Source: Terriglobia bacterium (GTDB lineage Bacteria; Acidobacteriota; Terriglobia; JAIQFV01). Taken from it: a stretch of DNA of 47,334 bases. Below, in pieces: positions 1 to 21,391 of this stretch. Under the pieces are notes generated by a model. It searched no databases, was not told the DNA's origin, and saw only the letters and a list, made by a program, of their open reading frames with translations. The stretch's first letter is position 1, and the number at the start of each line of letters is the position of its first letter. The stretch lies in assembly GCA_020073085.1 (NCBI GenBank), contig JAIQFV010000029.1, positions 1-47,334 of the forward strand, in the 5' to 3' direction. The position numbers and the translations under genes are program-made.

Positions 1-289
1 GATGGTCCCAGAACAGGGCCTTGCCGAGCACGATGGCGGCCTGCCGGTCGACCACATAGTTGGACAGGTTGGCGGGCAAAGGAACTGGAAAGTTCCGGAG
101 CGAACCCGGAGGTGGTGGCGGATCCGGCCCGAATCTTCCCCGCTGGCCCCATACCCTTCCGCTTGCCGAGGCCAACACTAAGAAAACCACCACAGCAGTG
201 AACCATCTCCCGATCGAACTCCTTGGGATGGCCTTTCTGGGTCCTATAATTACTCCATCCCCTCTTGCTACCCGTTTGGTTTCGTTCAT
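1..289 (-). CDS. Di-haem cytochrome c peroxidase-like protein (N-terminal fragment, runs off the left edge)
   Basis: Reading the minus strand from an ATG at 289 gives 96 codons open to the window edge. A good ribosome site (AGGAG, 296-300) precedes it. The start has a basic n-region, a hydrophobic stretch at about residues 30-46 and a possible cleavage site after VWG, so the protein is exported. A proline-rich linker follows, then LSNYVVDRQAAIVLGKALFW. That string (Asn-Tyr, Ala-Ala, LGKALFWD) is typical of the N-terminal part of MauG/CcpA-type di-haem peroxidase-like proteins, just before the first CxxCH. The haem motifs themselves lie outside the window, so the haem content is inferred. The gene has its own sigma-54 promoter 50 bases upstream and neighbours a cytochrome c/SCO fusion and a multicopper oxidase, so a redox role in the periplasm fits. 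Confidence 0.6.
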   Translation of the reverse strand, partial: MNETKRVARGDGVIIGPRKAIPRSSIGRWFTAVVVFLVLASASGRVWGQRGRFGPDPPPPPGSLRNFPVPLPANLSNYVVDRQAAIVLGKALFWDH

Positions 290-1083
290 CTTTGACTCCT
301 TCTTTGCATACGGCCCTTCCCGTTCACTATTGGATAAGGGCAACCCACATGCCAAATAGGTTTATGATCAATGGTTTCTCTCCGAAAGGATGGCCCGAAT
401 CATATGAACCTGGACCAAGAACTCCACAACGTCTATAGATCTGTCGTAAACACAAGCAAAAGCAATAAATTACATTCAAGAAGGCATCCTGAATCCCTGC
501 CCGGATCCTAAATCATCCGGTCAATGTGAAACCCTCTGCCGGTCAGACCATACAGGCAACTCCCAAAAACTGGCACCTTTCTTCATTCTTTTCGCGCACA
601 CAATCGCGAAAAATGCTTGTTAAGTCCCTTAATTGATTATGGTCCCGAAGGATTAGTGCGATGGCGAGCCATGGTGCCCCACTCGACGAAAGGAGGCGCG
701 AGAGCCTATCGAGTACCAGCTTAATTGACTCGCGTGGACTGGAGGGGGGGCATGTATTTCAAAACAACTGGGACACGGAAAGGCGCTGTTTATTCAGATC
801 CAAGCGCCTGGACATTCGATCACGCAGGTTGGACTGGAATTTCTTGACATAAATTCTCAATGGACTAAAAGGAATTACAGCGGAACGGACATTTACACTT
901 GTTTGGGAGGCTTTATGGGAACTAAAGATAAATGAGGAGAAGCGACCGTTTCCCTACCGCGGGCGGAGCTATCTCCTCATTCGGAACTCAAATTCAGACT
1001 AGAAGCAAACCACCGGAGCCCACCACAAAAACCCTTCCATTAGGTCCTACCATTCCATCGAAGCGATAAAGCCCCATTGCCAC
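290..1083. other. Intergenic region between the SCO fusion gene and the peroxidase-like gene
   Basis: About 800 bases without a convincing gene. It holds the sigma-54 site at 339-354. Short open frames here lack ribosome sites and recognisable protein features. No clear terminator hairpin was found behind the gene ending at 1084. Confidence 0.6.
339..354 (-). promoter_or_regulatory. Sigma-54 (RpoN) -24/-12 promoter of the peroxidase-like gene
   Basis: The minus strand reads TGGCATGTGGGTTGCC. It has the invariant GG and GC with the canonical 10-base spacing and matches TGGC-N7-TTGC fully. The predicted transcript start is near 328, leaving a leader of about 39 bases before the ATG at 289. It is one of five such sites in this cluster. 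Confidence 0.7.
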
Positions 1084-2522: not shown

Positions 2523-4784
2523 TTAAAAGGCGGTCGGGAGGATGTCGTCCGGTTGGACGAACGTGACACCCTGCGGCTTCGGGATCGGAGTCGGGAGCGG
2601 CCTCAGGAATGCACCGCCCGAGTCGTCGATTTCCCATCGCAAGAGCATGGCGTTGTCCTCGTGCACGGTGTTGTGGCAGTGCTCCATGAACATTCCACCC
2701 CAATCGCGAAACTGCATCGTAATGGTGACGCTTCCCGCCGGACGCAGGCGATAGACGTCCTTGCGGCCCCGCTCCCACGCCGGCACATTGCTGAGGCTGC
2801 CGTTGCGGGCAAGGATCTGGCCTTCCTCAAAGTGGATGTGGATGGGGTGATCCCAGCCGCCACCACCATTTTGCAAGGTCCAGATTTCGCGAGTTCCGAA
2901 TTTGGGCGCCGCCGAGACCCGGCCGAAATCCGCGTTGAGCGTTGGCCCTTGATTGTCCGTCTTAATACCCCAGGGACCAAAGAAGGACGAAACCGGATCG
3001 AGCGTTGTCTGGGTACCGCCACTGCCGAAGTTAAATACCCGCTCGCGCGCCACGGGGATATTCGACAGGTCGGGATTCGGGATCATGGTCGCAGGTACCT
3101 GGCTCTGATCGGGCTGCGCCGGATTCCGCGCAATTCGAAACTCCAGGAATCTCCCGACGCAAGGATCTGCGGACTTGCCGGACAAAGCATCCGACAACGA
3201 AAGGTCTTTGGACGGTTTCTTTCCGTTCTGGTGCTCGCACAGGTTCACCATCCAAACCTTCTGCCCGATGCTGTAACGGGAGAAGTCGATAACGATGTCA
3301 TACCGCTCGGCGATCCCCTGTTCGTCCAGCTGCGTGAGTGGCACCGGCTGCGGGAACAAGTTGCCGTCGTTGGCGATCTGAATCATTGGTGAGCCGTCGC
3401 TCAGCGCCACCTTGAAGAAACGGGAAACACTGGCGTTGAGAATGCGGAAACGATACTTCCGCCGCTCCACCTCGAAGTAAGGCTTGTAGAGCAGGTTCAC
3501 CGTCATCACATCACCCAGGAACCCGTCAAAGTCGAAAATATCAAAGTACAGTTGTCCGGCACCATCCCATGCCTTATCGGCCAGCATGAGGTTCACGTCA
3601 TAGTCCAGGTTGCCCCAATCATTGGCCGTGCCGCTGGGCAGGCGCAGGTTCACGCCGTCATTGATCGACTCGTTGCCGCGATCCAATCCGCTGTAGATGT
3701 TGAACATCGCGGCGTTGCCCTTGTACACGTTCTGCGAGGTAAAACTGAACATGTGATCGTGGAACCAGTGGGTGCTCATGGTCTCGTGCCAGTCGCCCGC
3801 AACCTTGATGAGACCGCCACTCCCGTCAGGGGTGCTGGCTTTGGGATCCGTCGCTCCCGTGTTGAAGGAAGTCCAACCGGCCAACACAACCGGCCAGTGA
3901 TAATCATAGAACTGGCCCGGGAAGAAGTAGGCGCCCGTGAAGCCGTCGTTTTCCGCCCCGTGGTGCCCGTTATGCTCGTGGGTGCTGATGGTATTGGTTC
4001 CAAAGCCGCCGTTCTGGCTCCTGTTGAAAGGCAGCTTGTTGTGGTGACGGAATAGAACCGGCTCCGCGTATCGTGCCTGCACCAGCTTGGGTGGGATGGT
4101 TCCATTGAAGGTCCACACCGATTGAATGCCCTGAACCGGCAGCTTCGGGTGGAACTTAAACGGGATCGCCTGGGTCGGGTCGATGCCGGAATTAAGACTA
4201 GACGGCACCGCAGGATTGTAGACGTAGTTAGTCTGGGCCGGCATTTGAGAGGCTTCTACGACTACCTTTGGTGGAAACTGGCTAAACCTCTGGTGTGCCC
4301 AGATAGCTCCCGGAGGACGCCCTTCGATGGGCCCGAATTGATCGGTTCGCCCTCCAACCAGCGCAGGATTCAAATTCTGCATCGTTTGGTTGGCTTGGGC
4401 TGTCGGCTGATATACCACACCATTCACAGGCTCCAGCGGGAACAGGCCCTGTCCATCAGGCTGCTTGCGCGGCAATACATCGAAGCGAGCCATGGGTTGA
4501 GTAAATTCCAACCCGACCAGTCCCGGACTCGGCGGAGCGCCAGTTGGTATATTGTTCCCTCCACCCCCATCGGCGCGCATAGTTCCCACAAAGGGACTGA
4601 GACCACCGATCGGGGCTAGAGCCCCCCCAGTTGTAATGAGACCCCACTTCAGGAGGTCCCGTCGCGTGACTTGGCCTTGGGAGTATGCTTTGACGATCTC
4701 CAGCCGGTTCTTTCTTGCATCCTCCGCCGCCTTGAGCCGCGCCTTAGACGCATTCCATGGCAGAAAGAAGTTTCGCTCGCTCAT
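2523..4784 (-). CDS. Tat-exported multicopper oxidase 1
   Basis: 753 residues. A purine-rich ribosome site (AAGGAGAGG) precedes the ATG at 4784. A twin-arginine signal, TRRDLLKWG (R41, R42), follows a long charged n-region, and a hydrophobic stretch runs to about residue 66, so the enzyme is exported folded. All four copper clusters of the multicopper oxidase family are present: HEH (269-271), HWFHDH (339-344), HPIHIH (646-651) and HCHNTVHEDNAM (702-713) with axial Met713 for the type 1 copper. Such enzymes couple one-electron oxidation of a substrate to four-electron reduction of oxygen at the trinuclear centre. The substrate cannot be told: metal ions and phenolics are both possible. A perfect sigma-54 promoter stands at 4942-4957. 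The Tat motif and copper clusters resemble those of oxidase 2 at 21392, so the two are paralogous, but this one lacks the Gly/Ser linker. Confidence 0.93.
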   Translation of the reverse strand: MSERNFFLPWNASKARLKAAEDARKNRLEIVKAYSQGQVTRRDLLKWGLITTGGALAPIGGLSPFVGTMRADGGGGNNIPTGAPPSPGLVGLEFTQPMARFDVLPRKQPDGQGLFPLEPVNGVVYQPTAQANQTMQNLNPALVGGRTDQFGPIEGRPPGAIWAHQRFSQFPPKVVVEASQMPAQTNYVYNPAVPSSLNSGIDPTQAIPFKFHPKLPVQGIQSVWTFNGTIPPKLVQARYAEPVLFRHHNKLPFNRSQNGGFGTNTISTHEHNGHHGAENDGFTGAYFFPGQFYDYHWPVVLAGWTSFNTGATDPKASTPDGSGGLIKVAGDWHETMSTHWFHDHMFSFTSQNVYKGNAAMFNIYSGLDRGNESINDGVNLRLPSGTANDWGNLDYDVNLMLADKAWDGAGQLYFDIFDFDGFLGDVMTVNLLYKPYFEVERRKYRFRILNASVSRFFKVALSDGSPMIQIANDGNLFPQPVPLTQLDEQGIAERYDIVIDFSRYSIGQKVWMVNLCEHQNGKKPSKDLSLSDALSGKSADPCVGRFLEFRIARNPAQPDQSQVPATMIPNPDLSNIPVARERVFNFGSGGTQTTLDPVSSFFGPWGIKTDNQGPTLNADFGRVSAAPKFGTREIWTLQNGGGGWDHPIHIHFEEGQILARNGSLSNVPAWERGRKDVYRLRPAGSVTITMQFRDWGGMFMEHCHNTVHEDNAMLLRWEIDDSGGAFLRPLPTPIPKPQGVTFVQPDDILPTAF

Positions 4785-5347: not shown

Positions 5348-5734
5348 TTAATGACCCGGGTTATGGGTCTTGCTCTTGCGTAGTCTCTTCAGCAAGCATG
5401 CCGCAAGATCATCCAGGCTGACGGGCTTGACATAGAACTCATCGGCCCCACGATTCAGAGCTTCACTCTTGACCGCCGCATCTGTCTCCCCCGTAACCAC
5501 AATAATAATCATGTCGGGGTAATCTCTCTTAAGACCGTCAATCGAACCGAGCGCGTTTCCATCAGGTAGTTTTAGATCCAGGATGACGGCATCGAATCGT
5601 TGTTGCGTCAATCTCTCTTTAGCTTCGGCGAGGCAAGTAGCTTCCTCAACGTTGTAACCGGCGGCTGAAAGATAGCGGGAATAACCAAAAATGATTGCGG
5701 GTTCATCATCAACGAGTAAAATACGCGTGCTCAT
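5348..5734 (-). CDS. Stand-alone response regulator receiver protein (CheY-like)
   Basis: 128 residues, consisting of a receiver domain only. The acidic pocket is D9-D10, the phospho-acceptor is D53 (LDLKLPDG), and the conserved switch residues are T81 and K103 (YVKPV). There is no DNA-binding or AAA+ output domain, so it must act by protein contact, like CheY or Spo0F, or relay phosphate to another regulator. A weak ribosome site (GAGGGTGAG) precedes the ATG. It has its own sigma-54 promoter at 5862-5877 and so belongs to the same probable regulon as the neighbouring oxidase. Its kinase is not in the window. Confidence 0.9.
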   Translation of the reverse strand: MSTRILLVDDEPAIIFGYSRYLSAAGYNVEEATCLAEAKERLTQQRFDAVILDLKLPDGNALGSIDGLKRDYPDMIIIVVTGETDAAVKSEALNRGADEFYVKPVSLDDLAACLLKRLRKSKTHNPGH

Positions 5735-6170: not shown

Positions 6171-6637
6171 AATAGATACATTGCATTTACCATCCCATCG
6201 AATCATTCGTTACCCTCGCAAAATCAACGAGAAGAAAAAAAGAACATCCATCAAGTTCAACCGTCACAGGATGTGGAACCCTGCTTGCCTTACTGAGTAT
6301 GGTGCTAAGTCGTGTGGATCGGAGACTGCCCTTGCAGATTATTCGAAGGAGTTGGAGCAGCACAGGGCGTGAACAAAGGCAACAATCCCATAAAATTAAT
6401 TATCTGGGCACATCTCACTCGAATCGCATGATCTCTTGTTGAACGGCAGAAATCATGATGCAAGTCTGGCACATGATCTGTCCTATCCGCAGACAGTCGC
6501 CGAGCCATTAAACGCATTGGCGTGAGGGTTCAACAGGAGCCAATCCAGAAAGACGACAGTTTACTCAATGGACTTTCTAATGAGAGACCAATGAGAACCC
6601 TACGGAACCCCTGATGATCAACAAGAGGAGAACAATA

Positions 6638-9115
6638 ATGAATACGAAAACGAGCTCAGCTTTGTATCATGGCATGCGCTCCAAGCTGCCATGGGTGTCC
6701 GCCATGTTGACGCTTCTGTTTCTGGTCGTGGCAGCGTGGACCAGCACGGCAGTGGCACAACTGCCGCTTCCAGTGAGCACTCAGTTTGACATCACGGGTT
6801 TCCTTCAGGAAGCGACGCTGGACGCGAGTTGCTCTGCGAGTGCCCACTGCAGCGGCAGGTTGAAAGTAAACGGCCATCTGGTAACTGTACCCAAGGAAAC
6901 CATCGTCATTCTTCCGGCCAATGCCCTGACATGGCAAGAACTCTTTGCTCAAGCCCCTGCTCCGTACACCGGAGTAGCGACGGGCTTGGCCATGGCCGAC
7001 ATTCCAACTCCCCTCACCCAGTATGAAGTCGAGGCGGTAGGCAACCGCGTGGGCGACACTTATATTGCCGGACTCATTTACATCTCCCAGCAGAGCCTGA
7101 ACTCAGGGCAGGGCTTCATTAACTTCATCAACTATAGTGTCGGCGAGATGCGGGTGGGCGGTGTGATCGGGGATTCCACCACCGGTAACCGGGTGCGAAT
7201 CAACGACCCCACGGGAAAGTTCGGTCGAGCCATGACCGTAGATCAACGGTTCACGCTTGACCCGGATAACCCGACCATCATGAGTGGGACCGGCTATCCG
7301 ATGTGCTTCCCGCGCGTCACGACGGACCCGACAGTCGCCGGCAACCCTGACGATCCTCTGTGTCCTCAGGGCAACCGGCCGAAGGACCTGACTGGCGCCT
7401 ATGTGGGCAGCTTCTCCACAAACGATCCTGTCGCCGCGCCGGGCGCGTTCCCGGACGCGACCAAACAGGCACCCTTCGAGGTAGGTGACTACATCACCTT
7501 CGCGGGAACGCTTGTGACTGACGCCGCCACACCCACCGTAGGCCCTTGGCCAGCCAACGGAACCGCCGGCACGTACATCTCGGCTCACACCATCATCAGC
7601 AATGTCGCCATCTTCACCATGCCAGGGACCAATCCGGTCTACGTGGAGACCGATGTGTTCCTGATCGGCACCGGAGGACTGACGATCCTCGGTGGCACCG
7701 AAGCGACGGTCCGGACGCGGTTCGAGGGAATGACCACGGACCCGACCCGGACCATTCACCTATATGGAATTGATTTGAATGCCAGCACCGGAGCCACGTC
7801 TGACCGTGACTGGGGCACTATCGGCGTCGATCCAGGTCCCCCGGCGGGCGCGGTCCGAGGGCGTTGGCGCTTCCGTCCGCCGTGTGCACCCTTCGGGACT
7901 GTTGTAACAAAACCTGACAAACAGTGCGTCATGAACGCCGCGGGCACCTTCCTCCCGCCGACAAGAGAAATGAGGGCCGTCGTTGAAGGCGCGTGGGTCC
8001 CTGGGCAGACCACCACCTCTGCCAACGGACTCATTTACGGGCAGTACCACGCCCCGATCCTGTTGTACATTTTCCCGGAGAACATTCCCGGCTCCCCGGT
8101 TGTCCCCAATAACTTCGAGGCAATCGATTTCCTGGTCTGTGGCGGTTATACCTCCTCGGCAGGAACTCTGGTAGGGCAGCTCAATCCCTGGCCGGGTGCA
8201 GCGGCCCCGTCGCTCGCAGGTTGCCCGGGTGCAATCGCGCCCCCCATCGCCAATGCCGGCATCGCCCAGACGGTGCCGTCTAGTTCTCTCGTGACTCTGA
8301 ACGGCAGCGCCTCCACTGGGACAGCCCCCTTGGCGTTCTCATGGGTCCAGGCAGCAACGGATCTGAACCAGGTGATCCTTACCGGTCCTACGACCGCCAA
8401 CCCGACCTTCTCGGCGCCTGCTGTCGCAGCGACGACCGTGCTGAACTTTACGCTGACGGTGACCAACAGTGCTGGCTCATCGTCTGCCTCTGTGACGGTC
8501 ACGGTCAACCATGCCGCCGCCCCAACCGCCATCGCCCCTGCCCCCCAGACAGTGAATTCCGGAACGCTGGTGACGTTGACGGCCACTTGCACCGATCCTC
8601 AAGGCCTGGCGTGCACATTCAGCTGGCTGCAGACGGCACCTGCGGCCCCGATTGTGCTCAATCCGAATCCCTTCAGCGGCGCGACCATCAGCTTCACCCT
8701 CACGCTGCCCGTGGGGACGACTACAAGCACTGTCCTTCAGTTCCAGGTGACGGCGACGAACTCTGCCGGTGTCAGCTCGGCGCCGGTACTCACTTCCGTT
8801 ACCGTCAACCCACCGAAGGATGGCATCACCATCACGACGGCGGTGTACCGGAGAGGGAAACAGAGGCTTGACCTCACCGTCACGGATTCAATCATCAGCC
8901 CGAACGTGATCTTGACTTTGCAGCCCTATATCACGACGTCGGGAACCCTGTTTACGCCTCCCAGTGGTACGCTCACAAATACTGGAGGCGGTCTCTACAC
9001 ATACACCCTGGTAGGAGCACCTGAACCCGCCGTTCCGCCGGCAAAGCCCTTGGTGGTCACGTCCAACTTGGGAGGGGCCAGCGCACCTTCGGCTCTTACC
9101 CTCATCCGTCAGTAA
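6638..9115 (+). CDS. Secreted PKD/Ig-type protein A (tandem paralogue of the next gene)
   Basis: 825 residues. I chose the ATG at 6638 because AAGAGGAG (6623-6630) precedes it and a clean signal peptide follows, with cleavage expected after AVA (residue 40). The N-terminal 500 residues are a family I do not recognise; they hold the strings IVILPANALTW, EMRVGGVI, VRINDP and PFEVGDYITFAGTLV. From about residue 530 two PKD/Ig-like beta domains follow (ANAG..QTVPS..VTLNGSASTG, then PAPQTV..GTLVTLTATCTD), then a C-terminal beta domain of about 95 residues ending VVTSN..ALTLIRQ. PKD-like domains mediate extracellular protein or polysaccharide contacts. The protein is probably extracellular or surface-bound. 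Its place beside two Tat-exported copper oxidases suggests a scaffold, substrate-binding or matrix role, which is inference. Confidence 0.85.
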   Translation: MNTKTSSALYHGMRSKLPWVSAMLTLLFLVVAAWTSTAVAQLPLPVSTQFDITGFLQEATLDASCSASAHCSGRLKVNGHLVTVPKETIVILPANALTWQELFAQAPAPYTGVATGLAMADIPTPLTQYEVEAVGNRVGDTYIAGLIYISQQSLNSGQGFINFINYSVGEMRVGGVIGDSTTGNRVRINDPTGKFGRAMTVDQRFTLDPDNPTIMSGTGYPMCFPRVTTDPTVAGNPDDPLCPQGNRPKDLTGAYVGSFSTNDPVAAPGAFPDATKQAPFEVGDYITFAGTLVTDAATPTVGPWPANGTAGTYISAHTIISNVAIFTMPGTNPVYVETDVFLIGTGGLTILGGTEATVRTRFEGMTTDPTRTIHLYGIDLNASTGATSDRDWGTIGVDPGPPAGAVRGRWRFRPPCAPFGTVVTKPDKQCVMNAAGTFLPPTREMRAVVEGAWVPGQTTTSANGLIYGQYHAPILLYIFPENIPGSPVVPNNFEAIDFLVCGGYTSSAGTLVGQLNPWPGAAAPSLAGCPGAIAPPIANAGIAQTVPSSSLVTLNGSASTGTAPLAFSWVQAATDLNQVILTGPTTANPTFSAPAVAATTVLNFTLTVTNSAGSSSASVTVTVNHAAAPTAIAPAPQTVNSGTLVTLTATCTDPQGLACTFSWLQTAPAAPIVLNPNPFSGATISFTLTLPVGTTTSTVLQFQVTATNSAGVSSAPVLTSVTVNPPKDGITITTAVYRRGKQRLDLTVTDSIISPNVILTLQPYITTSGTLFTPPSGTLTNTGGGLYTYTLVGAPEPAVPPAKPLVVTSNLGGASAPSALTLIRQ

Positions 9116-9126
9116 CTTGACCTATT

Positions 9127-9161
9127 GCGGTCGAAGGGCAGGACAGCTGCCCTTCGACCGC
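9127..9161 (+). terminator. Terminator-like hairpin behind gene A (hairpin family member 1)
   Basis: A perfect 14-bp stem, GCGGTCGAAGGGCA (9127-9140) and TGCCCTTCGACCGC (9148-9161), with a 7-base loop, 11 bases after the stop codon. There is no long T-run. The stem sequence recurs behind the next two genes. Confidence 0.65.
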
Positions 9162-9249
9162 TTATCCGACATTCTACTCAATGAATTCAGTGACAAGAGC
9201 CATAGAAATCCCTGAGGTAACCTCGATGGCCAACAAGAGGAGAACAATA

Positions 9250-11772
9250 ATGAACAAGAAAATGAGGTCGGCTTTATATCATTGCATTCGTTACAAGTTG
9301 CCTTGGGGGTTGGGAGCACTGACCCTCTTGTTTCTGGTCGTGCTTGCATGGACCAGCAACGCACCGGCCCAGGGGCCGATTTCACCGACGCAGTTCGACG
9401 TCACAGGCTTCCTGCAGGAGGCCACATTGACGACTCCCGGTGATGCCCACTCCGGTGGCCAACTGAAGGTCAACGGCCACGTGATTACCGTGCCGAGGGA
9501 AACTATCGTGATTCTCCCGGCCAACGCGCTCACCTGGGAAGAACTCTTTGCCCAGGCGCCAGCCCCCTACACGAATGTTTCGACGGGCTTGGCCATGGCC
9601 GACATTCCAACCCCACTCACCCAGTATGAAGTCGAGGTGGTGGGCAACCGCATCGGCAATACTTACATTGCCGGGCTCATCTACATCTCCCAGCAGACTC
9701 TGAACTCCGGTGCGGGGTTCATCAACTTCATTGATTACACCTTGGGCGAGATGCGCGTGGGTGGAGTTATCAACGACCCGAACTGCGCGCAAGGTGGCAC
9801 TGCCGCGTCGAACCCCCTCTGTTCAGGCGCACGGGTACGAATCAACGACCCCGTCGTGGCGGCCGTTGGCACCGGTCGCTACAGCAAAGGGATTTCTCCT
9901 GACGTGAGATTCACGGTGGACCAGGACAATCCGACGGTTATGAGCGGGACCGGCTTCCCCATGTGCCTGCCGCGCACCGACCCGGCCGTGGCGAACGATC
10001 CCCTGTGCCCCCAAGGCAACCGTCCAATTGTCGGCGGCTTTTTCTCCGGCAGTTTCTTTATGAACGATCCGGGGGCCGCCCCGGGCTTACCACCGGACGC
10101 GACTAAACAAGCACCCTTTGAAGTGGGCGATTACATCATCTTTGCAGGAACGCTCGTCACAGATAATGTGGCGGCTCCCACCGCTGGACCGTGGCCTGCC
10201 AACGGAACTGCAGGCACCTATATCTCCGCTCATACGATCACCAACAATACCGCCATCTTCACCGCCGCGGGAACCAACCCTGCTTATGTGATGACCGATA
10301 CGTTCATTCTCGGTACCGGCGGCTTGACGATCCTTGGCGCCGCTGAGGCGGTAATTCGAACCCGGTTCGAGGGGATGACCACCGATCCGAGTAAGACAAT
10401 CCATCTCTATGGAATTGACTACAATGCTCTCACGGGTGCCCCGAGCGATCGCGATTGGGGTACGATCGGCGTGGATCCAGGTCCGCCCACGGGGGCGGTT
10501 CTGGGACGCTGGCGCTTCCGTCCCCCGTGCGCACCCTTTGGAACCGTTCCAACAAAACCTGACAAGCAGTGCGTCATGAACGCAAGCGGCATCTTCCTGC
10601 CCGCTCCAAGAGAAATGCGGGCTGTGGTCGAAGCGGATTGGTTTCCGGGGCAGACCACAACTGCGGCAAATGGGATTATCTACGGACAGTACCACGCCCC
10701 CATCACCGAGTTGATCTTCCCGGAAAATATTCCAGGGAGCCCGATCGTCCCGAACAATTTTGAGGCGATCCCTTTCCTGGCCTGTGGTGGTTATACCTCC
10801 TCGGCCGGAACCATTGCCGGCCAGCTCAATCCATGGCCCGGTGTGGCGGCTCCATCGCTCTCAGGTTGCGCGGGTGCAGTCGTGCCGCCGGTCGCCAATG
10901 CCGGCACGGCACAGACAGTGCCCTCGGGTGCGCTCGTCACTCTGAACGGCAGCGCCTCCACGGGGACGGCCCCCTTGACATTCTCATGGGCCCAGAACCC
11001 CGCGGATATTCCACAGGTGGTGCTGACCGGTGCGAATACCGCCAACCCAACCTTCCCGGCCCCCGTTGTGGGAGCGACGACCGTGCTGAACTTCACTTTG
11101 ACGGTGACCAACACCGCTGGATCCTCCTCAGCCTCCGTGACGGTCACGGTCAACGCTGCAGCGGCTCCAACCGCCACCGCCCCTGCGCCCCAGACAGTGA
11201 TTTCCGGAACGCGGGTGACCTTGACGGCTACTTGCACGGATCCTCTCGGATTGGCATGCACCTTCAGTTGGCTCCAGACGGCACCTGCGGCACCAGTCGT
11301 TATCACCCCGAATCCATTCACCGGCGCGACTATCAGTTTCACCCTCACGCTGCCGGTGGGTACCATCACCAGCACGGTCCTCCAGTTCCAGGTGACGGCG
11401 ACAAACTCTGCAGGGGTCAGTTCGGCTCCACAATCGACTTCGGTGACTGTGAACCCTGCTCCGGACGCTGTTATCATCACCTCGGCGGTGTACCGGACTT
11501 CCAAGCAGCGGTTGGATATGACCGCTTCATCGTCAGTCGTCAGCCCGAACATCATCCTGACCTTGCAGCCTTATCTCACAGCCCAGGGAACCACCTTTGA
11601 CCCCAAGAGCTTGGGGGGCGGGGCGAATGTATTTACAAACACAGGAGGCGGTCTCTACACCCTCACCCTGGTGGGTGCACCTGAGCCGGCGGTGCCACCC
11701 GCAACGCCTCTGATAGTCACCTCCAACATCGGAGGTAGAGCGACCTCGGCACTGACCTTGATACGGCAGTAA
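9250..11772 (+). CDS. Secreted PKD/Ig-type protein B (tandem paralogue of the previous gene)
   Basis: 840 residues. The ATG at 9250 is preceded by the same leader as gene A, including AAGAGGAGAACAATA, and is followed by a signal peptide (cleavage after APA, residue 40). It is co-linear with protein A along its full length, with the same unknown N-terminal domain, two PKD-like domains (about 540-730) and the C-terminal beta domain ending ALTLIRQ. It has small insertions of its own, for example around residues 175-200 with two extra cysteines, and near the C-terminus (about 783-790). The shared leader, promoter-proximal sequence and terminator hairpin show that the whole transcription unit was duplicated in tandem. 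The divergence between copies is spread over the gene, so the duplication is not recent. Function as for protein A. Confidence 0.85.
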   Translation: MNKKMRSALYHCIRYKLPWGLGALTLLFLVVLAWTSNAPAQGPISPTQFDVTGFLQEATLTTPGDAHSGGQLKVNGHVITVPRETIVILPANALTWEELFAQAPAPYTNVSTGLAMADIPTPLTQYEVEVVGNRIGNTYIAGLIYISQQTLNSGAGFINFIDYTLGEMRVGGVINDPNCAQGGTAASNPLCSGARVRINDPVVAAVGTGRYSKGISPDVRFTVDQDNPTVMSGTGFPMCLPRTDPAVANDPLCPQGNRPIVGGFFSGSFFMNDPGAAPGLPPDATKQAPFEVGDYIIFAGTLVTDNVAAPTAGPWPANGTAGTYISAHTITNNTAIFTAAGTNPAYVMTDTFILGTGGLTILGAAEAVIRTRFEGMTTDPSKTIHLYGIDYNALTGAPSDRDWGTIGVDPGPPTGAVLGRWRFRPPCAPFGTVPTKPDKQCVMNASGIFLPAPREMRAVVEADWFPGQTTTAANGIIYGQYHAPITELIFPENIPGSPIVPNNFEAIPFLACGGYTSSAGTIAGQLNPWPGVAAPSLSGCAGAVVPPVANAGTAQTVPSGALVTLNGSASTGTAPLTFSWAQNPADIPQVVLTGANTANPTFPAPVVGATTVLNFTLTVTNTAGSSSASVTVTVNAAAAPTATAPAPQTVISGTRVTLTATCTDPLGLACTFSWLQTAPAAPVVITPNPFTGATISFTLTLPVGTITSTVLQFQVTATNSAGVSSAPQSTSVTVNPAPDAVIITSAVYRTSKQRLDMTASSSVVSPNIILTLQPYLTAQGTTFDPKSLGGGANVFTNTGGGLYTLTLVGAPEPAVPPATPLIVTSNIGGRATSALTLIRQ

Positions 11773-11787
11773 GTTTGGCAATTCAAT

Positions 11788-11822
11788 GCGGTCGAAGAGC
11801 AGGACCTCCTCTTTTCGACCGC
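11788..11822 (+). terminator. Terminator-like hairpin behind gene B (hairpin family member 2)
   Basis: The outer stem GCGGTCGAA (11788-11796) pairs with TTCGACCGC (11814-11822); an imperfect inner stem follows. A pyrimidine-rich tail (TTTCTCTC) comes next. The 5' arm is nearly identical to the hairpin behind gene A. Confidence 0.6.
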
Positions 11823-11942: not shown

Positions 11943-12830
11943 ATGAAGACACCACGCAGAGTAATGGTACTAGCCGCCGTGCTCTTGGCGGTAATCGTAA
12001 CGCTGGCGTTCCCACAGGGGCTATTGGCGGCCAAATCACCGACTCTGTTGGGCACGACCGGTGCTTGCAAGAACCCTTTTCCGGGTGGCCCCTGCACTCA
12101 AACAAGCACCCTTGTGCAACTCGATCCGCAGACCGGCGCCCTCATCAAAACGATCGGTCCAGTGGGCTATACGGTCAACGGCTTGGCCTGGGACGGCATA
12201 CTCGGGAAGTTGTATGCTTCGACAGCGATCGGAGATGTCCGTTTTCATGGGTTGATCACAATTGATACCCGCACGGGAGTCGGTACACCCGTTGACAAAA
12301 ATGTGATCAATTTCGGGCTGGCTGGAGAGGACTCTCCTATCCACTCCATTACAATTGATCTCCTTGGGCGCATGGTCGGCTGGTATGATGAGTTCCCCCC
12401 GCCGGACGGAGTCACCGATACCTTTGTTCAGATTAATAAAAGAACGGGCATCGCCACTGAGTTTACTGGAACCGGGATCGATACATCTAACAATGGGCTC
12501 TCGTTCAGCGATTTCAACATCCTGTGGAATATCGACACTCCCCGCACACAGCCGGACGGAACTATTACTCAAACCGCTTACATCATCAATCCTAGCGATG
12601 GAAAACCGTTTTGCTTCAGATTATTGTCTCCGCCCACGGCCGCCGCACTGGGCGATTTCAATCCCGATAACAACCTCTACTATGGACTTAATTTCGACAA
12701 TTCGGGTCCGAGACCTTTTCCGACTTACATCGTGGTGGTCGATCCCCGCAAAGGGACAATAATCACGCTTGGGCGAACCATCGATGACCTGCATACGCTC
12801 GCGTTTGTTAAGACCAGCAAATTATTTTAG
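11943..12830 (+). CDS. Secreted propeller-like protein of unknown function
   Basis: 295 residues. The ATG at 11943 has an AAGGAG ribosome site and a signal peptide (hydrophobic residues 8-27, cleavage near LLAA, residue 30). The mature part has repeated short beta motifs such as LVQLDPQTGALIKTIG, LITIDTRTGVGTPV, FVQINKRTGIATEF and IVVVDPRKGTIITLG. These Asp-x-x-x-Gly hairpins at 50-70 residue spacing are typical of beta-propeller proteins (DUF4394/lactonase-like). No catalytic signature was seen. It follows the PKD-type pair in the same direction, and the hairpin behind it belongs to the same family as theirs, so it was probably part of the same secreted set. Confidence 0.75.
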   Translation: MKTPRRVMVLAAVLLAVIVTLAFPQGLLAAKSPTLLGTTGACKNPFPGGPCTQTSTLVQLDPQTGALIKTIGPVGYTVNGLAWDGILGKLYASTAIGDVRFHGLITIDTRTGVGTPVDKNVINFGLAGEDSPIHSITIDLLGRMVGWYDEFPPPDGVTDTFVQINKRTGIATEFTGTGIDTSNNGLSFSDFNILWNIDTPRTQPDGTITQTAYIINPSDGKPFCFRLLSPPTAAALGDFNPDNNLYYGLNFDNSGPRPFPTYIVVVDPRKGTIITLGRTIDDLHTLAFVKTSKLF

Positions 12831-13257
12831 ATCGTGGGTGGGTAACGGCAGTACGGTGGCTTCATTATCGACGATCGAAGAGCAGCGCGTCTGCTCTTCG
12901 ATCGCCCCTTCCCCCTGGGATTATGACTCGACTGCCCTACCCGACTGCTTTCCGCTCTTCGAGGAGACCCGAACATTGCCTGAATGCTGTCACCAATTCT
13001 CGCTTCGAATCCTCGTGGATGGAGGTGAGGCTTCAACCGCGAGAGCCAGGAGATGTGGAACTGTTCTTGCGCAACTTATAGATGTTGAATGGATGGGGAA
13101 ATCCGTGACTTCAAAGACGATGCAATTGGAAAAGCCGGAGCGGTCAACCCCTTAGATGATCAGTAAGTATGGCCACCGCTCGTCAAGCCTAGTCTTTGCA
13201 ACTGCGACCCAGAGATTGTTTTCCAACGCGAGGAACAAAAGCCCAGGGGGGGGTCAT
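12831..13257. other. Intergenic region before the Ig-repeat gene
   Basis: About 430 bases. It contains the terminator-like hairpin at 12872-12904. No convincing promoter was recognised and the open frames in it look like chance. Confidence 0.5.
12872..12904 (+). terminator. Terminator-like hairpin (hairpin family member 3)
   Basis: A perfect 14-bp stem, CGATCGAAGAGCAG (12872-12885) and CTGCTCTTCGATCG (12891-12904), with a 5-base loop, about 40 bases behind the stop codon. It shares the TCGAAG-GCAG core with the hairpins at 9127 and 11788. C-rich sequence, not a T-run, follows. Confidence 0.6.
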
Positions 13258-16023
13258 ATGAATAAATCCAGACCAGAACTGCTAATCGCTTTAATACTCT
13301 GCTTTTTGTTACCCGCAATCGTCCAAAGTCAAACGACGTGCACTGGCCCCGGGGCTCAGATGATCAGCCCAACGAACGGGTCCACGCTTCCCGCGGGTGC
13401 AGTGACCTTCGAATGGTGCAATGCGAGCGCCGACTACTTCTTGACGATTGAGAGCATCGTTGGCGCACATGATATTTTCTTTGCTTTTGCCGGAGGCCCT
13501 GGCGGCGCGGGCGTGACGACCATAACTCTGGGTCCGGCGTGCGCCCCAAGCGCTCCAATCCAGTGCATCCCCGCGAACGGTGAAACCATCCACGTTACCT
13601 TGGACACGGTGAAAAATAAGAAAATAATCGCAACATTCCAGTACACCTATACCGCTGCAAACTCAACGCCACCGGGTCCGATCGTGACCACCACGGCCGT
13701 TGACAACAAGACGGTGTCTTCCAGCAACATCGTTCAAAACGTCACCCTGACCGCGACCGTCGCAGCGGCACTGACCGTGAATCAGGGGACGGTAACCTTC
13801 CAAGTCAAGGATGGAGCCAGTAACATCGGGAGTGCAGTTACTTCGGGGATTCTGACTAACGGCAGCGCCAGCGTGATCTACCCTTTACCTCCGGGAACTC
13901 CCCCTAAGAGCTACACGATCCAGGCAGCCTACTCGGGCGGGTCGAATTTCCAGTCAAGCAGTGGCACGGGCGCGCTGACGGTGAGCGCCCCACCGCCCAC
14001 CATTGCCCCGACAACTACAACCGTCGACAACAAATTCGCGTCCTTTAACACTGCCGCGCAAGATGTCACACTGACAGCGACCGTCACGGCGGCAACAACT
14101 GTAAATCAGGGGACAGTGACCTTCCAGGTCTTGGACGGACTCAGCAACCTGGGTAGCGCTGTCACCTCGGGGACCTTGACCACAGGCAACGCGAGTGTGA
14201 TCTATCTATTGCCCCCAGGAGTCACCCCGAAGAGTTACACGATTCAGGTGTCTTATTCGGGCGGGTCGAATTTCCAGTCAAGCAACGGGGCCGGAGTTCT
14301 GACCGTAAACCCAGGGTCACCCTCCATTACGCCAACCACTACGACCGTCGACGACAAGACCGCAACCTTCAGCAGCATCGATCAGAACATCACGCTGACG
14401 GCGACGGTGGCCGCGGCATCCACTGTGCACCAGGGAACGGTCGCCTTCCAGCTGATGGATGGAGCAAACGGCGTTGGCAGCGTCGTTACTTCGGGACCCA
14501 TAACCACTGGAAGTGCGAGCGTGACCTATCTCCTGCCAGCCGGAATGATTCCCAGAAACTATACAATAAAGGCCGCCTACTCAGGCGGTTCCAACTTTCA
14601 AGCCAGCAGCGGGACGGGGACGCAGGCAATCGCTGCAAATCCAAACATCACGATGACGCTCCATCTGCCAATGAACGGCGCCTCAGCAACCTCTTCCGGT
14701 TTGGGGGCCATGGCGGTAAGTTACGGGCAGATGAATTCATCGATGGCGACCAGCCCGGTGGCCATTGCCAATTTCGGCTACACGAGCGGTGGTGCGGGAG
14801 CAGGAGCCCTGGTGACGGAGGCCGGCGTGCCTGCTGCAACTATTCTAACAGCGGCGCGATTGTTCGTGGACTACAATACGGACACCAACTCCGGGTTCGC
14901 CCTCGTGAACCCGAACAGCATCGCGATCAGCATCAGAGCAGACCTCAAGGACGCGAAGGGAACGGCGGTAGCATCCACGAGCATTCCCCTGGGCCCGAGG
15001 AGTCACACCGCAATGTTTGTGAACCAATTGCTGTCGACTCTGCCGAATCCTTTCCTGGGGACAGTAACCTTGACGAGCACAAATGGGTTTGCGGCAGTGA
15101 ATTTGAGCACAGCCACGAGCGGGCGAAAGGAGATGCTATTCAGTGCGCTTCCGGTGGCCGACCTCGGAAATCCCCCCAAAGGGACGCGGCTGCTCCTCTC
15201 CCAGATTGTAGATGGCGGGGGGAATCCGACTCAAATCCTTTTGATGAACCCGTCGGGGACCGCCCAAAGCGTCGGGACTGTCCAACTGTTCGACGACAAT
15301 GGCGTACCTCTGGCCCTTGACTTTGGAAATCTGACGGGGCCGCAGAACTCACTGGATTTCACCCTCCCCCCAGACGGAATGGTGAAGTTTGCAACGACGG
15401 GCAATGGAGCGCTCCAAGTTGGATATGCAGTGGTGACAGTGAGTTCGGGCCCACTGCCCGTAGGCAATGGCATCTTCCAGTTCAGGCAGGCCTCAGGACT
15501 GGTGAGCCAAGCCGGGGTACCGGATAGTCCGCAGACGAGTTCGGCGCGGCTTTATGTGGAAGTTGCGTCGGCGCCGTTAAGTCGAAACACGGGGATCGCT
15601 GTCGTCAACCGCAATCCAGCGGCGTCAGTCCTGACTCTAACATTGAATGGGCTTGACGGGTCGACGCAGGTGGCTACGCTGACACTGGGCCCGAACGGGC
15701 ACACGGCGAAGTATATTACGCAACTTTTTGCGGGCCTGCCCGCAGACTTCAGCGGTGTGTTGAATGTCGCCAGCACTCAGCCGAATAGCTTCTTAACCTT
15801 GCGGCAAACGGTCAACGAGCGCGGTGAGAACATCTGGTCCACACTTCCGGTCGCCGATCTAAGTAATGCACCTCAGGGGATCCAAATTCTACCGCAGATC
15901 GTCAACGGAGGCGGATACAAGACCGAGACCATTGTCATCAGTACCTCCACCGTTTTGGGGACGGTCTACATCAACTTCTTTGACGAGGCTGGAGGAAATG
16001 TACCCTTGGCGATACTTCTTTAA
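13258..16023 (+). CDS. Secreted multi-repeat Ig-like protein, apparently cut short in its last repeat
   Basis: 921 residues. The ATG at 13258 is preceded by AGGGGGGG and followed by a signal peptide (cleavage after VQS-Q). After an N-terminal domain of about 120 residues come three tandem Ig-like repeats of about 105 residues (about 140-460), each with TTTVD(N/D)K, NVTLTATV, NQGTVTFQ and YSGGSNFQSS. Such repeats (bacterial Ig-like) form stalks on the cell surface. From about 460 two longer units of about 200 residues follow, each with AGVP, ARL(F/Y)V, NSGFALVN or NTGIAVVN, LGP..HTA, LPVADL and QIV(D/N)GGG. The second unit stops at VPLAILL, where the first unit continues for about 60 more residues, so the C-terminus is truncated. 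None of the three downstream frames restores the missing segment. Confidence 0.8.
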   Translation: MNKSRPELLIALILCFLLPAIVQSQTTCTGPGAQMISPTNGSTLPAGAVTFEWCNASADYFLTIESIVGAHDIFFAFAGGPGGAGVTTITLGPACAPSAPIQCIPANGETIHVTLDTVKNKKIIATFQYTYTAANSTPPGPIVTTTAVDNKTVSSSNIVQNVTLTATVAAALTVNQGTVTFQVKDGASNIGSAVTSGILTNGSASVIYPLPPGTPPKSYTIQAAYSGGSNFQSSSGTGALTVSAPPPTIAPTTTTVDNKFASFNTAAQDVTLTATVTAATTVNQGTVTFQVLDGLSNLGSAVTSGTLTTGNASVIYLLPPGVTPKSYTIQVSYSGGSNFQSSNGAGVLTVNPGSPSITPTTTTVDDKTATFSSIDQNITLTATVAAASTVHQGTVAFQLMDGANGVGSVVTSGPITTGSASVTYLLPAGMIPRNYTIKAAYSGGSNFQASSGTGTQAIAANPNITMTLHLPMNGASATSSGLGAMAVSYGQMNSSMATSPVAIANFGYTSGGAGAGALVTEAGVPAATILTAARLFVDYNTDTNSGFALVNPNSIAISIRADLKDAKGTAVASTSIPLGPRSHTAMFVNQLLSTLPNPFLGTVTLTSTNGFAAVNLSTATSGRKEMLFSALPVADLGNPPKGTRLLLSQIVDGGGNPTQILLMNPSGTAQSVGTVQLFDDNGVPLALDFGNLTGPQNSLDFTLPPDGMVKFATTGNGALQVGYAVVTVSSGPLPVGNGIFQFRQASGLVSQAGVPDSPQTSSARLYVEVASAPLSRNTGIAVVNRNPAASVLTLTLNGLDGSTQVATLTLGPNGHTAKYITQLFAGLPADFSGVLNVASTQPNSFLTLRQTVNERGENIWSTLPVADLSNAPQGIQILPQIVNGGGYKTETIVISTSTVLGTVYINFFDEAGGNVPLAILL

Positions 16024-16621: not shown

Positions 16622-17272
16622 ATGACATTTGAGATGACCAGAAGAAGCTTACTAGCGGGATTAGTCCTTGCTCCCGTGGGGGTCGCACTTGCTGCAACCA
16701 AGACCTTTGGGGCTGCGACACCTGCTCCCGTTCGTGCCGGGCAGTCCAGCCGGTCGGGATCGAACTACTTCCCTGATTTTGTCTTGCAGACTCACGAAGG
16801 CAAAGACGTCCGCTTCTATGAGGACCTGCTTAAAGGCAAGGTGGTCCTGATCAACTTCTTCTATGCCAAGTGCAAGAAATTCTGCCCCCCGCAGACTATG
16901 AACTTGGTCAAAGTTCAGAACCTGCTGGGATCTCGACTGGGTCGCGACGTGTTTATGTATTCCCTCACCTTGGAGCCGGAGGTGGACACACCTGAGGTGC
17001 TCAAGGAGTATGCCGAGGAGCACGGGGCAAAGTCCGGATGGAAGTTTCTGACCGGAAAACCTGAGGAGATGGAAATCCTTCGTCGTAAGCTCGGGTTTGT
17101 GGATCCCGATCCCGTGGTGGACAAAGATAGCTCCTCTCACGTAGGGATGGTGCTGTACGGCAATGAGACTCGAAACATGTGGTCCGCCTGCCCAGCCCTC
17201 ACAAAACCAGAGGAAATCGTTCGTTATGTGGGATGGGTTATTGATCCTGCAAACTCGGCACCGATTGCATAA
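16622..17272 (+). CDS. SCO1/SenC family copper chaperone with twin-arginine-like signal
   Basis: 216 residues. GGGGAG precedes the ATG. The N-terminus MTRRSLLAGLVLAPVG looks like a twin-arginine signal (R7, R8), so it may be exported by Tat. The SCO fold spans about 48-207 with the copper-binding pair C84 and C88 (CKKFC) and distal His173 (SSHVGMV), so the three expected copper ligands are present. It shares long similar stretches with the SCO part of the fusion at 1084, for example KVRFYDDLLKGK versus DVRFYEDLLKGK and FLTGKPE, so the two are paralogues. This copy lacks the heavy-metal-binding and cytochrome c domains. It is followed after 157 bases by tatA. Copper delivery to the exported oxidases is the likely role (inference). 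Confidence 0.92.
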   Translation: MTFEMTRRSLLAGLVLAPVGVALAATKTFGAATPAPVRAGQSSRSGSNYFPDFVLQTHEGKDVRFYEDLLKGKVVLINFFYAKCKKFCPPQTMNLVKVQNLLGSRLGRDVFMYSLTLEPEVDTPEVLKEYAEEHGAKSGWKFLTGKPEEMEILRRKLGFVDPDPVVDKDSSSHVGMVLYGNETRNMWSACPALTKPEEIVRYVGWVIDPANSAPIA

Positions 17273-18494: not shown

Positions 18495-20708
18495 ATGAGC
18501 CGAAAGCATAATCATCTGTTCGTTCTCCTCCTGCTATTCTGCGCGGGGTTGGCGTATGGAACGGCATTTGGCAACATCAAAGGCATTGTTCACGATCCCG
18601 ACCACCGGCCGATTGCAGGCGCCCATGTCAAACTGTCGGCGCGAAACTCTGATTGGTCGCAAGAAACGTCAACCGATTCCGATGGTGAGTTTCAATTCAC
18701 TGCGGTTCCCATCGGGGAATATCGGGCGATCGTCAACTTCACTGGGTTCAACTCCATCGAACAACAAGTGGTTGTTGTTTCAGGAAGCGCGCCAGTCTTG
18801 CACTTTCAATTGGCTCTCGCCGAGGTCAGTCAGGTTGTCGAAGTCTCTGAGACAGCCGAAGCGGTCAACACCACGACGGATGCTCCGCTCACTCTATTGG
18901 ATCGGAAGCAAATTGAGCGCACGCCCGGGGCGGACCGCACAAACAGCCTGGCAATGATTACCAACTATGTCCCTGGTGCCTACGTGGTTCATGACCAGCT
19001 TCACGTTCGAGGCGGACATCAAGTGACATGGTCAGTCGATGGGATCCCTGTGCCCAACACCAACATCGCAAGCAATGTGGGTCCCCAGTTTGATCCTAAA
19101 GACGTCGATTACATCGAAGCGCAGCGCGGCAGCCTCTCTGCCGAGTCGGGCGACCGGACCTATAGCAATTTCAACGTGGTTCCGAGGACCGGCTTTGAGC
19201 GCAACCGCGAGATAGAGCTCGTCACGAGTTACGGAAATTTCAACCAAACAAACGATCAGATCAGTTTCGGCAGCCACACCGAGCGGTTCGCTTATTATGG
19301 AAGTGTCAATGGGAATCGGAGCGATATGGGGCTGGAGACGCCCACTTCGGAAGTCCTTCACGATATGGCAAGCGGCCTTGGTGGATTCGGCATGCTGGTT
19401 TTCAACCTCAATGAGCATAATCAGCTGCGCCTGGTGAGTTCTCTACGCAGGGATCAGTATCAGATTCCCAATGATCCGGACCAACAATCTGCCGGCACTC
19501 AGGACGTCGAAAAAGAGAGCGATGCTTTCGTCAATTTCAGCTGGGTGCATACGGCAGGACCCGGACAGATGCTCACCGTTTCCCCCTTCTTTCATTTCAA
19601 CCGCGCCAATTACATCGGCGGTCCGAATGATCCCCTCCTGAGCCCGCAGGACAATCATGCCTCCCGGTACGCAGGCATGCAGGTCGCGTACAGCACCGCC
19701 TGGAAGAAACATAATTTCCGCGTTGGCGCTTACGGTTTTGACCAGCGTGATAGCACCTTGTTCGGGCTCCAGGCCAACGATGGCAGCGATTTCTCAATAC
19801 GCCAGAAGGAAAATCTCTCAGGCAATCTCGAGGCATTGTTTCTGGAGGACCAGTTCAAGCCCACCTCCTGGTTGACCCTGAATGGAGGGGTGAGACTGAC
19901 TCATTTCTCAGGAATGGTCTCTGAAAATGCCGTCAGCCCCCGTCTGGGGGCGTCAGTCCGGATCCCGCATTGGAACTGGGTGGTTCGTGGGTTTTACGGA
20001 CGTTACTATCAAGCCCCTCCCCTCTCGACGGTTTCCGGCCCATTGCTCGATTTTGCGCTGGATCAGGGGGTTGGGTTCCTGCCCCTTCACGGCGAGCGGG
20101 ACGAGGAGCACGAGTTCGGATTGTCCATCCCCCTCAGAGGCTGGGTGTTTGATATCGCTTCCTTCCATACTCACGCAAAGAATTTTTTTGATCACGATGT
20201 ACTGGGAAACTCGAATATCTTTTTCCCTCTCACGATCGAAGGGGCGAATATTCGGGGTTGGGAAATCACCGTGCGATCTCCCGAGTTGCTTCGCCGTGGC
20301 CATGTCCATGTCGCGTATTCGAACCAACACGCCGAGGGTTTTGGATCGATCAGTGGCGGGTTGACCGATTTCTCGCCGCCTGAGGGTCGCTTCCTTTTGG
20401 ATCATGACCAGCGGCATACATTTAATTGCGGATTCGAATTGAACCTGCCGTGGCATAGCTGGGCCTCTGGGAACGCTTACTACGGCTCAGGGTTTGCGGA
20501 CAGTAATGGACGCGGCCATCTTCCAGGGCACACGACCGTTGACCTTACTCTCGGTAAGAGTCTGAGGGATAATCTCTCCATTTCAGTGAGTGCCTTGAAT
20601 ATTGCCAACCGGAGATACTTGCTTGATAACAGCCCGACCTTCGGCGGGAGGCATTATGCAGATCCGCGCCAGATATTCTTTCAATTACGATATCGGTTCC
20701 ACTACTGA
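18495..20708 (+). CDS. TonB-dependent outer-membrane receptor with N-terminal carboxypeptidase-regulatory-like domain
   Basis: 737 residues. A signal peptide (about 1-24) is followed by an Ig-like carboxypeptidase-regulatory domain (about 26-112, with GIVHDPDHRPIAGAHVKL), a plug (about 125-225, with RTNSLAMITNYVPG, LHVRGGHQVTWSVDGIPVP and VDYIEAQRG) and a 22-strand type barrel to the end. The last residues RYRFHY carry the terminal aromatic needed for outer-membrane insertion. Such receptors import scarce, bulky or chelated substrates using TonB. The substrate is unknown. Its length is near the family's lower range. The upstream Cys/His-rich protein and the nearby copper enzymes make a metal or metal complex plausible (inference). 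A TonB is encoded 4 kb downstream. Confidence 0.92.
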   Translation: MSRKHNHLFVLLLLFCAGLAYGTAFGNIKGIVHDPDHRPIAGAHVKLSARNSDWSQETSTDSDGEFQFTAVPIGEYRAIVNFTGFNSIEQQVVVVSGSAPVLHFQLALAEVSQVVEVSETAEAVNTTTDAPLTLLDRKQIERTPGADRTNSLAMITNYVPGAYVVHDQLHVRGGHQVTWSVDGIPVPNTNIASNVGPQFDPKDVDYIEAQRGSLSAESGDRTYSNFNVVPRTGFERNREIELVTSYGNFNQTNDQISFGSHTERFAYYGSVNGNRSDMGLETPTSEVLHDMASGLGGFGMLVFNLNEHNQLRLVSSLRRDQYQIPNDPDQQSAGTQDVEKESDAFVNFSWVHTAGPGQMLTVSPFFHFNRANYIGGPNDPLLSPQDNHASRYAGMQVAYSTAWKKHNFRVGAYGFDQRDSTLFGLQANDGSDFSIRQKENLSGNLEALFLEDQFKPTSWLTLNGGVRLTHFSGMVSENAVSPRLGASVRIPHWNWVVRGFYGRYYQAPPLSTVSGPLLDFALDQGVGFLPLHGERDEEHEFGLSIPLRGWVFDIASFHTHAKNFFDHDVLGNSNIFFPLTIEGANIRGWEITVRSPELLRRGHVHVAYSNQHAEGFGSISGGLTDFSPPEGRFLLDHDQRHTFNCGFELNLPWHSWASGNAYYGSGFADSNGRGHLPGHTTVDLTLGKSLRDNLSISVSALNIANRRYLLDNSPTFGGRHYADPRQIFFQLRYRFHY

Positions 20709-21146: not shown

Positions 21147-21391
21147 CGTCTATCTGTGCACCCGGATCTGCAGGATCAACGCTGACTCAAAAGAATCAAT
21201 AGCATGATCGCATCACAACAAGGACTAGCTTTCAGGACCAAATTCGAGGTGTTCCTCAAGCTTAGAGAGCTTTGAAACGAACTCTACGGCTTACCGTGAA
21301 TTGATCCAAGCGGCTGTGCTCCTGGAGTGACAAAGTTTCTAAGACAGACCAGCCAGACGACAAGAGATCGGGTGAATTGGGGGTAGCAGAG

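Follow-up and report, generated by a model that had tools for sequence, protein, structure and literature searches.

Two adjacent genes for secreted proteins

The window analysed here, that is, the whole 47,334-nucleotide stretch of contig JAIQFV010000029.1 from a Terriglobia bacterium (Acidobacteriota), carries two adjacent genes, A and B, for large secreted proteins. Their N-terminal domain of approximately 490 residues is named FAM in this study, and its gene neighbourhoods across many bacteria support a role as a partner of oxidases that act outside the cytoplasm. The features of the pair were as follows.

6619..6637, +: leader CAACAAGAGGAGAACAATA of gene A, ribosome-binding region
6638..9115, +: gene A, secreted protein of 825 aa; FAM domain at approximately residues 41-534, weak PKD/Ig-like C-terminus
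9127..9161, +: hairpin 3' of gene A with a 15-bp stem, within a fold of -35.4 kcal/mol
9231..9249, +: leader of gene B, identical to that of gene A
9250..11772, +: gene B, 840 aa, paralogue of A with a two-Cys insert absent from A
11788..11822, +: hairpin 3' of gene B, within a fold of -29.0 kcal/mol

The A and B proteins were aligned end to end by BLASTP, with 635 of 850 columns identical (75%) and 35 gap columns, and the DNA repeats between the two genes, spaced by approximately 2.6 kb, extended from the leader to the C-terminus. The 18-mer AACAAGAGGAGAACAATA was located at 6620-6637 and 9232-9249 and occurred twice in the window when up to three mismatches were allowed, compared to 0.03 occurrences expected by chance; none of 100 shuffles gave two occurrences, and no further occurrence of the 18/19-nt leader was found in the window. 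The exact leader was not found in the other loci collected, except those cut from the same place. In the sister species (G001, the one further genome searched in the genus), the FAM copy on contig C75 had a nearly identical leader. Both N-termini carried a hydrophobic leader that reads, by eye, as a Sec signal. A hairpin 3' of the stop codon was present in all eight FAM copies folded. Furthermore, a strict hairpin pattern matched six places in the two genus genomes together, five behind FAM genes and one behind a propeller gene, and the reversed control matched none; the hairpin therefore travels with the FAM gene, and it may serve as a terminator or an mRNA-protecting stem. The description of A and B in the first-pass annotation, as co-linear genes with a common leader, signal peptide layout and 3' hairpin, was borne out by the identity, the repeated 18-mer and the folding of both hairpins.

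The same annotation noted small insertions with extra cysteines in gene B. The insert (NDPNCAQGG...PLCSG) is real, but it was also present in the copies on contigs C5 and C63 and in three G001 copies. Since it is common to most genus copies and missing from A and the C18 copy, it is A that differs from B by lacking the insert. Two cysteines at this position were found in 9 of 74 family members.

The genome contains five FAM copies (A, B, C18, C5, and C63), and G001 gave 10 matches, corresponding to approximately 7 genes. A tree was built from 57 of the 74 aligned rows, the dropped rows being Pseudomonas. In the tree, A grouped with C18 (99/99), and B fell with the C75 copy of G001 and the C5 copies. 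The synonymous divergence (dS) between A and B was 1.39, and the ratio of nonsynonymous to synonymous divergence (dN/dS) was 0.11. Judged by these values, the A/B pair is old and under purifying selection, and its split predates that of the genus into its two sampled species. The two genes are thus adjacent paralogues, as had been proposed; however, the plain recent tandem duplication that this suggested was ruled out by the tree and the dS, the closest relative of A being on another contig. In Betaproteobacteria, a tandem FAM pair was likewise resolved in two clades, each common to several metagenome-assembled genomes (MAGs). The FAM pairing therefore arose more than once. On contig C63, the FAM copy (L009 2380-3302) adjoins genes of a different, by eye phage-like look, and this contig is possibly chimeric.

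The FAM family and its spread

The claim that the N-terminal domain belongs to no recognised family held in every search. Among 74 members, nothing exceeded the Pfam cut-off, a single weak match to DUF7243 (E 0.0039) being the only one seen, and NCBIfam gave no match. The A and B N-domains had no match in PHROGs, and the FAM profile gave no hit at E up to 1 against all PDB chains. FAM is thus a secreted domain found in several phyla with neither a Pfam or NCBIfam model nor a solved relative by sequence. The family was not described in the titles, abstract openings and passages searched, those of PMC11930936 included, a literature set that left subscription journals mostly outside.

An AlphaFold model computed from the 74-sequence alignment reached a pLDDT of 86.9 and a pTM of 0.87 and consisted nearly entirely of beta strands; when 9 closely related rows only were supplied, the pLDDT of the N-domain was under 50. 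Structure prediction thus gave a good model but no clear fold match. Foldseek gave no match at E up to 0.001, with TM values of 0.09-0.15 relative to the query, and the best VIA-align result (Z 7.8) covered approximately 90 residues of the Ig-like region 291-440 only. The absence of a fold match for the predicted structure is not proof of a new fold. Kinship to DUF5666, prompted by a DUF5666 protein encoded next to FAM in Paraburkholderia, was rejected (hhalign probability 4%).

Among the residue types tabulated, Asn136, Asp202, Arg204, Asp208, Cys223, Asp239, Cys242, Arg247, Asp284, Tyr335, Glu355, Asp368, Arg409, Asn463, Tyr470, and Glu481 were invariant (74/74), and Trp99 (72/74) and His317 (70/74) were nearly so. 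Since there are seven invariant carboxylates and no invariant histidine, a hard-metal or structural role is suggested rather than a classic copper site. Any role given to an individual FAM residue is a guess.

The proteins had initially been called PKD-type. This label applies weakly to the C-terminal third and not to the rest of the protein: in the PKD-domain test (Pfam PF18911 and kin), A and B scored 15.5 and 17.4 bits, respectively, and did not pass the curated cut-off of 27. The Paraburkholderia relatives passed PF22352 with 66 and 52.7 bits (cut-off 27), and the FAM tail is therefore PKD-like. In Pseudomonas, FAM proteins stop near the domain end and the long tail is absent.

One scan of GTDB genomes yielded 78 FAM loci, distributed over Acidobacteriota, Chloroflexota, Myxococcota, Actinomycetota, and Alpha-, Beta- and Gammaproteobacteria (including Methylococcales and many Pseudomonas). 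An earlier impression that FAM was confined to its own genus (2 of 61 genomes with gene A as the query) was overturned by this result. Within the phylum the family was rare, the profile search matching 3 of 396 sampled genomes, own genome counted. Horizontal transfer is suggested because the branching of the tree mixes phyla; for example, an Anaerolineae copy stands beside one of Intrasporangiaceae. Cultured carriers included Pseudomonas vancouverensis, P. moorei, Methylobacter psychrophilus, and Terrabacter aerolatus, and the role of FAM is thus open to bench work.

Oxidase genes beside FAM genes

All neighbours were clustered without prior assumptions from 84 sources, own-genus loci included. 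Multicopper oxidases (MCOs; 27 loci) and SCO1 proteins (22 loci) ranked right after FAM's own cluster; the latter had absorbed a third group, made up of long di-haem proteins that carry two CxxCH motifs. Pfam confirmed PF03150 (CCP_MauG) in examples of this group from Pseudomonas, Methylobacter, a betaproteobacterium, Angelobacter, and Hyphomicrobium. After profile relabelling, the 78 loci contained MauG in 38, MCO in 25, giant MCO in 3, and SCO in 20, and 53 of them had an MCO, a giant MCO, MauG, or several of these. The simple open reading frame (ORF) picker lost genes to overlapping opposite-strand frames; it missed FAM in L040, L056, L088, and L095, whose rows read FAM 0, and MauG in L121.

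The neighbours were compared to chance in 40 loci, one per genome, picked by hand from the 78 to cover the groups, with most Pseudomonas loci left out. MCO was present in 18 loci compared to 1.01 expected from the per-genome counts of PF07731. MauG was likewise present in 18, compared to 0.41 expected from PF03150, which matches up to two times per gene, so that this expectation is too high rather than too low. The enrichment probabilities treat the genomes as independent, and the genomes are related. The same neighbours recurred in Acidobacteriota, Chloroflexota, Actinomycetota, and Beta-, Gamma- and Alphaproteobacteria. The gene order was MCO-SCO-MCO-SCO-FAM-MauG in Methylococcales and FAM-MauG-FAM-MCO-x-SCO/cytochrome, with type II secretion genes alongside, in Paraburkholderia, whose FAM and MCO were 61% and 69% identical, respectively, to those of the window. 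In Lapillicoccus (L038 1879-17723), the genes flanking FAM were an MCO and two animal haem peroxidases with RTX repeats. Giant MCOs were located near FAM in G001 and in two MAGs, one of Chloroflexota and one of Frankiales. The window has neither a giant MCO nor an RTX haem peroxidase.

The proposal of an extracellular partner of the oxidases is thus supported by a linkage far beyond chance across phyla, and by the window itself. The closest partner, however, is the di-haem MauG-type enzyme, which was absent from the first-pass account. This protein is approximately twice as long as MauG, and among PDB entries bacterial cytochrome c peroxidases scored higher with it than MauG did.

Among 249 Pseudomonas genomes, 14 carried FAM and 35 carried a long MauG (over 800 bits, a threshold that we set), and all 14 were inside the 35 (hypergeometric probability 8e-14, assuming independent genomes). 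The two genes were 1250-1408 bp apart in 9 of the 14 genomes. In the other 5 they were on different contigs, two of these cases (G621 and G706) involving contig ends or fragments. Moreover, a Hyphomicrobiaceae ORF (L105 2561-6919) encodes MauG (residues 77-811) and FAM (residues 902-1452) in one frame. As a separate observation, the long MauG gene of G687, which is remote from FAM, adjoins a very long ORF that resembles MCOs (L121 1-10404).

It had also been supposed that there might be one FAM protein for each oxidase, with copy number following the MCOs. This was not the case in 42 genomes, where FAM copy number did not correlate with the number of MCOs (rho 0.01, p 0.93) and correlated instead with MauG-type matches (rho 0.52, p 0.0004); these copy numbers count matches, fragments included, as in the 10 matches of G001.

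The set seen at other FAM loci, with MauG (here truncated), SCO/cytochrome and MCOs (here two), is also found in the window, where the following genes surround A and B.

1..355, -: MauG-type di-haem protein, first approximately 118 residues, cut by the contig end
1084..2277, -: HMBD, SCO1/SenC and cytochrome c in one protein
2523..4784, -: multicopper oxidase 1, 753 aa, copper-ligand motifs present
5348..5734, -: response regulator receiver protein
11943..12830, +: secreted protein with a weak YncE propeller-like match (E 0.02, far below cut-off)
13156..16023, +: secreted Big_3_5 Ig-like protein
16622..17272, +: SCO1/SenC protein
18495..20708, +: TonB-dependent receptor
21377..23569, +: multicopper oxidase 2, 730 aa, bilirubin-oxidase/CotA-like

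Both MCOs kept the copper-ligand motifs, and their closest PDB structures were bilirubin oxidase and CotA. The window (1-355, minus strand) and contig C18, which carries another FAM copy (L010 14780-15089 for the MauG-type end), both break off within a MauG-type gene, and their end sequences are the same; the genome therefore probably has two near-identical MauG-type copies that broke the assembly. In G001, FAM was followed by MauG, SCO, and MCO, in this order, after which an A-like gene begins and is cut by the contig end. A gene similar to the propeller-like one was located downstream of a FAM gene in the sister species, and relatives of the Big_3_5 protein followed the FAM copies on C18, on C5, and in G001. 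In multicopper oxidase 2, a long Gly/Ser-rich repeat separates the leader from the catalytic part. Just upstream of the TonB receptor, a small secreted-looking protein (18033-18440) with CC/CCC/HHH runs had no Pfam match.

Possible roles of FAM

We propose, with a probability of roughly 55%, that FAM is a dedicated non-catalytic secreted partner of extracytoplasmic oxidases, above all of the long MauG-type enzyme, together with laccase-type MCOs. A and B are members of this family of secreted, mostly beta-stranded proteins, and the laccase-type MCOs would be loaded by SCO1 copper chaperones. Outside the cell, FAM may bind the oxidase as a subunit or scaffold, its PKD/Ig-like tail possibly acting as a spacer, and may present either a redox-active aromatic site (Trp99, Tyr335, and Tyr470) or a hard-metal site (Asp202, Asp208, Asp239, Asp284, Glu355, Asp368, and Glu481). 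A and B would then both serve a single surface oxidase complex, as partly specialised forms, instead of each having its own oxidase. A permanent subunit or scaffold is favoured by the MauG-FAM fusion and by the actinobacteria that have FAM and no MauG. To our knowledge, the targets of long MauG-type proteins are mostly unknown, and the FAM linkage offers a testable handle on them, as well as on second components of extracellular oxidases, IoxC among them, whose role is unexplained.

Several observations weigh against this proposal. No MCO, giant MCO or MauG was found in 25 of the 78 loci; some of these are short or at contig ends, and L011, L025/L029, L033, and L104 are long. Two FAM loci of the own genus (L011; L025/L029) had neither MCO nor MauG within the approximately 10 kb read, and the own-genus C5 loci likewise lacked such a neighbour. 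In Pseudomonas, 21 of the 35 genomes with a long MauG had no FAM match, and FAM and MauG look truly unlinked, being on different contigs, in G529, G561, and G687. The fusion in L105 was the sole one among the neighbour proteins scanned. Furthermore, because none of ten actinobacterial FAM genomes tested had a PF03150 match, MauG is not universal for FAM.

The alternative that survives best, although we regard it as unlikely, is that FAM is a protein substrate of the MauG-type enzyme, in which Trp or Tyr would be oxidised into a protein-derived cofactor or metal ligand, and FAM with this cofactor would then itself be the redox protein. MauG builds the tryptophan tryptophylquinone (TTQ) cofactor of methylamine dehydrogenase, and the MauG-like CorB/SACCP is co-transcribed with CorA/MopE, in which the copper site uses kynurenine (PMC3912023). 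In methanotrophs, CorA-CorB and MopE-SACCP resemble FAM in that the gene of a MauG-like di-haem cytochrome adjoins that of a protein which is secreted or surface-located and forms a family of its own, an arrangement found for FAM in 38 of the 78 loci and, as a fusion, in L105; the cited passages on CorA/MopE differ in naming no SCO or MCO. Homology to a known client was not seen: the structures of CorA and MopE have been solved, yet the FAM profile hit no PDB chain at E up to 1, with no direct comparison made. The operon of mtoX followed by SCO1 and mauG (PMC5739008) is a further precedent, with an enzyme gene preceding SCO1 and MauG-type maturation genes, but mtoX encodes a named copper enzyme (SBP56), whereas FAM matches no named family. 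A role as a MauG client is favoured by these precedents, by the conservation of Trp99, Tyr335, and Tyr470, and by the link between FAM and MauG copy numbers. Nevertheless, the actinobacterial FAM genomes retain Trp99 and have no PF03150 protein, a permanent fusion suits a subunit at least as well, and the length and cytochrome c peroxidase-like scores of the di-haem partner set it apart from MauG. The fuller version, in which FAM is a new class of MauG client whose Trp/Tyr cofactor is built by the long di-haem enzyme, and which forms the redox-active or metal-binding part of a surface complex with laccase-type MCOs, is slightly less probable still; if true, this class would join methylamine dehydrogenase and CorA/MopE.

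Equally doubtful is the idea that FAM belongs, as partner subunit, to a complex oxidising metals or halides, as IoxC does to the iodide oxidase, or that it is a component of a Mn(II)-oxidation system. The iox cluster (IoxA-F), which comprises the MCO IoxA, three SCO proteins, and IoxC, a protein without a known function, and is flanked by gsp genes (PMC9415286), is, going by its descriptions (PMC9415286, PMC12335899), the nearest whole-cluster analogue of the FAM loci, where MCO and SCO genes are adjacent to FAM in 25 and 20 of the 78 loci, respectively. Both combine an MCO, several SCO proteins, and a second secreted protein, with secretion genes nearby as in the Paraburkholderia FAM-MCO-SCO cluster; the iox passages differ in naming no di-haem enzyme, and the substrate is known in iox. 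The haem peroxidase with RTX repeats adjoining FAM in Lapillicoccus and the giant MCOs near FAM are also in line with such a role. The mnxG operon of P. putida GB-1 contains SCO and propeller genes, and the mnxG and mofA operons resemble the FAM loci in combining an MCO with SCO or a copper chaperone, mofA also with the cytochrome-domain mofC (PMC8218464). However, the window MCOs are laccase-type and closest to bilirubin oxidase/CotA, no FAM gene is named for the mnxG/mofA operons in the cited passages, and no evidence for iodide, Mn or another substrate was found.

The least probable alternative is that FAM is a general surface or matrix protein (an adhesin or S-layer-like) whose proximity to oxidases reflects a shared island of secreted proteins; this would fit the PKD/Ig-like tails, the further Ig-like secreted neighbours and the own C5 copy without oxidases nearby, but the enrichment of specific enzymes in unrelated phyla, the Pseudomonas co-occurrence and the MauG fusion would be unexpected for a generic adhesin, and the Pseudomonas FAM proteins consist of little beyond the domain itself.

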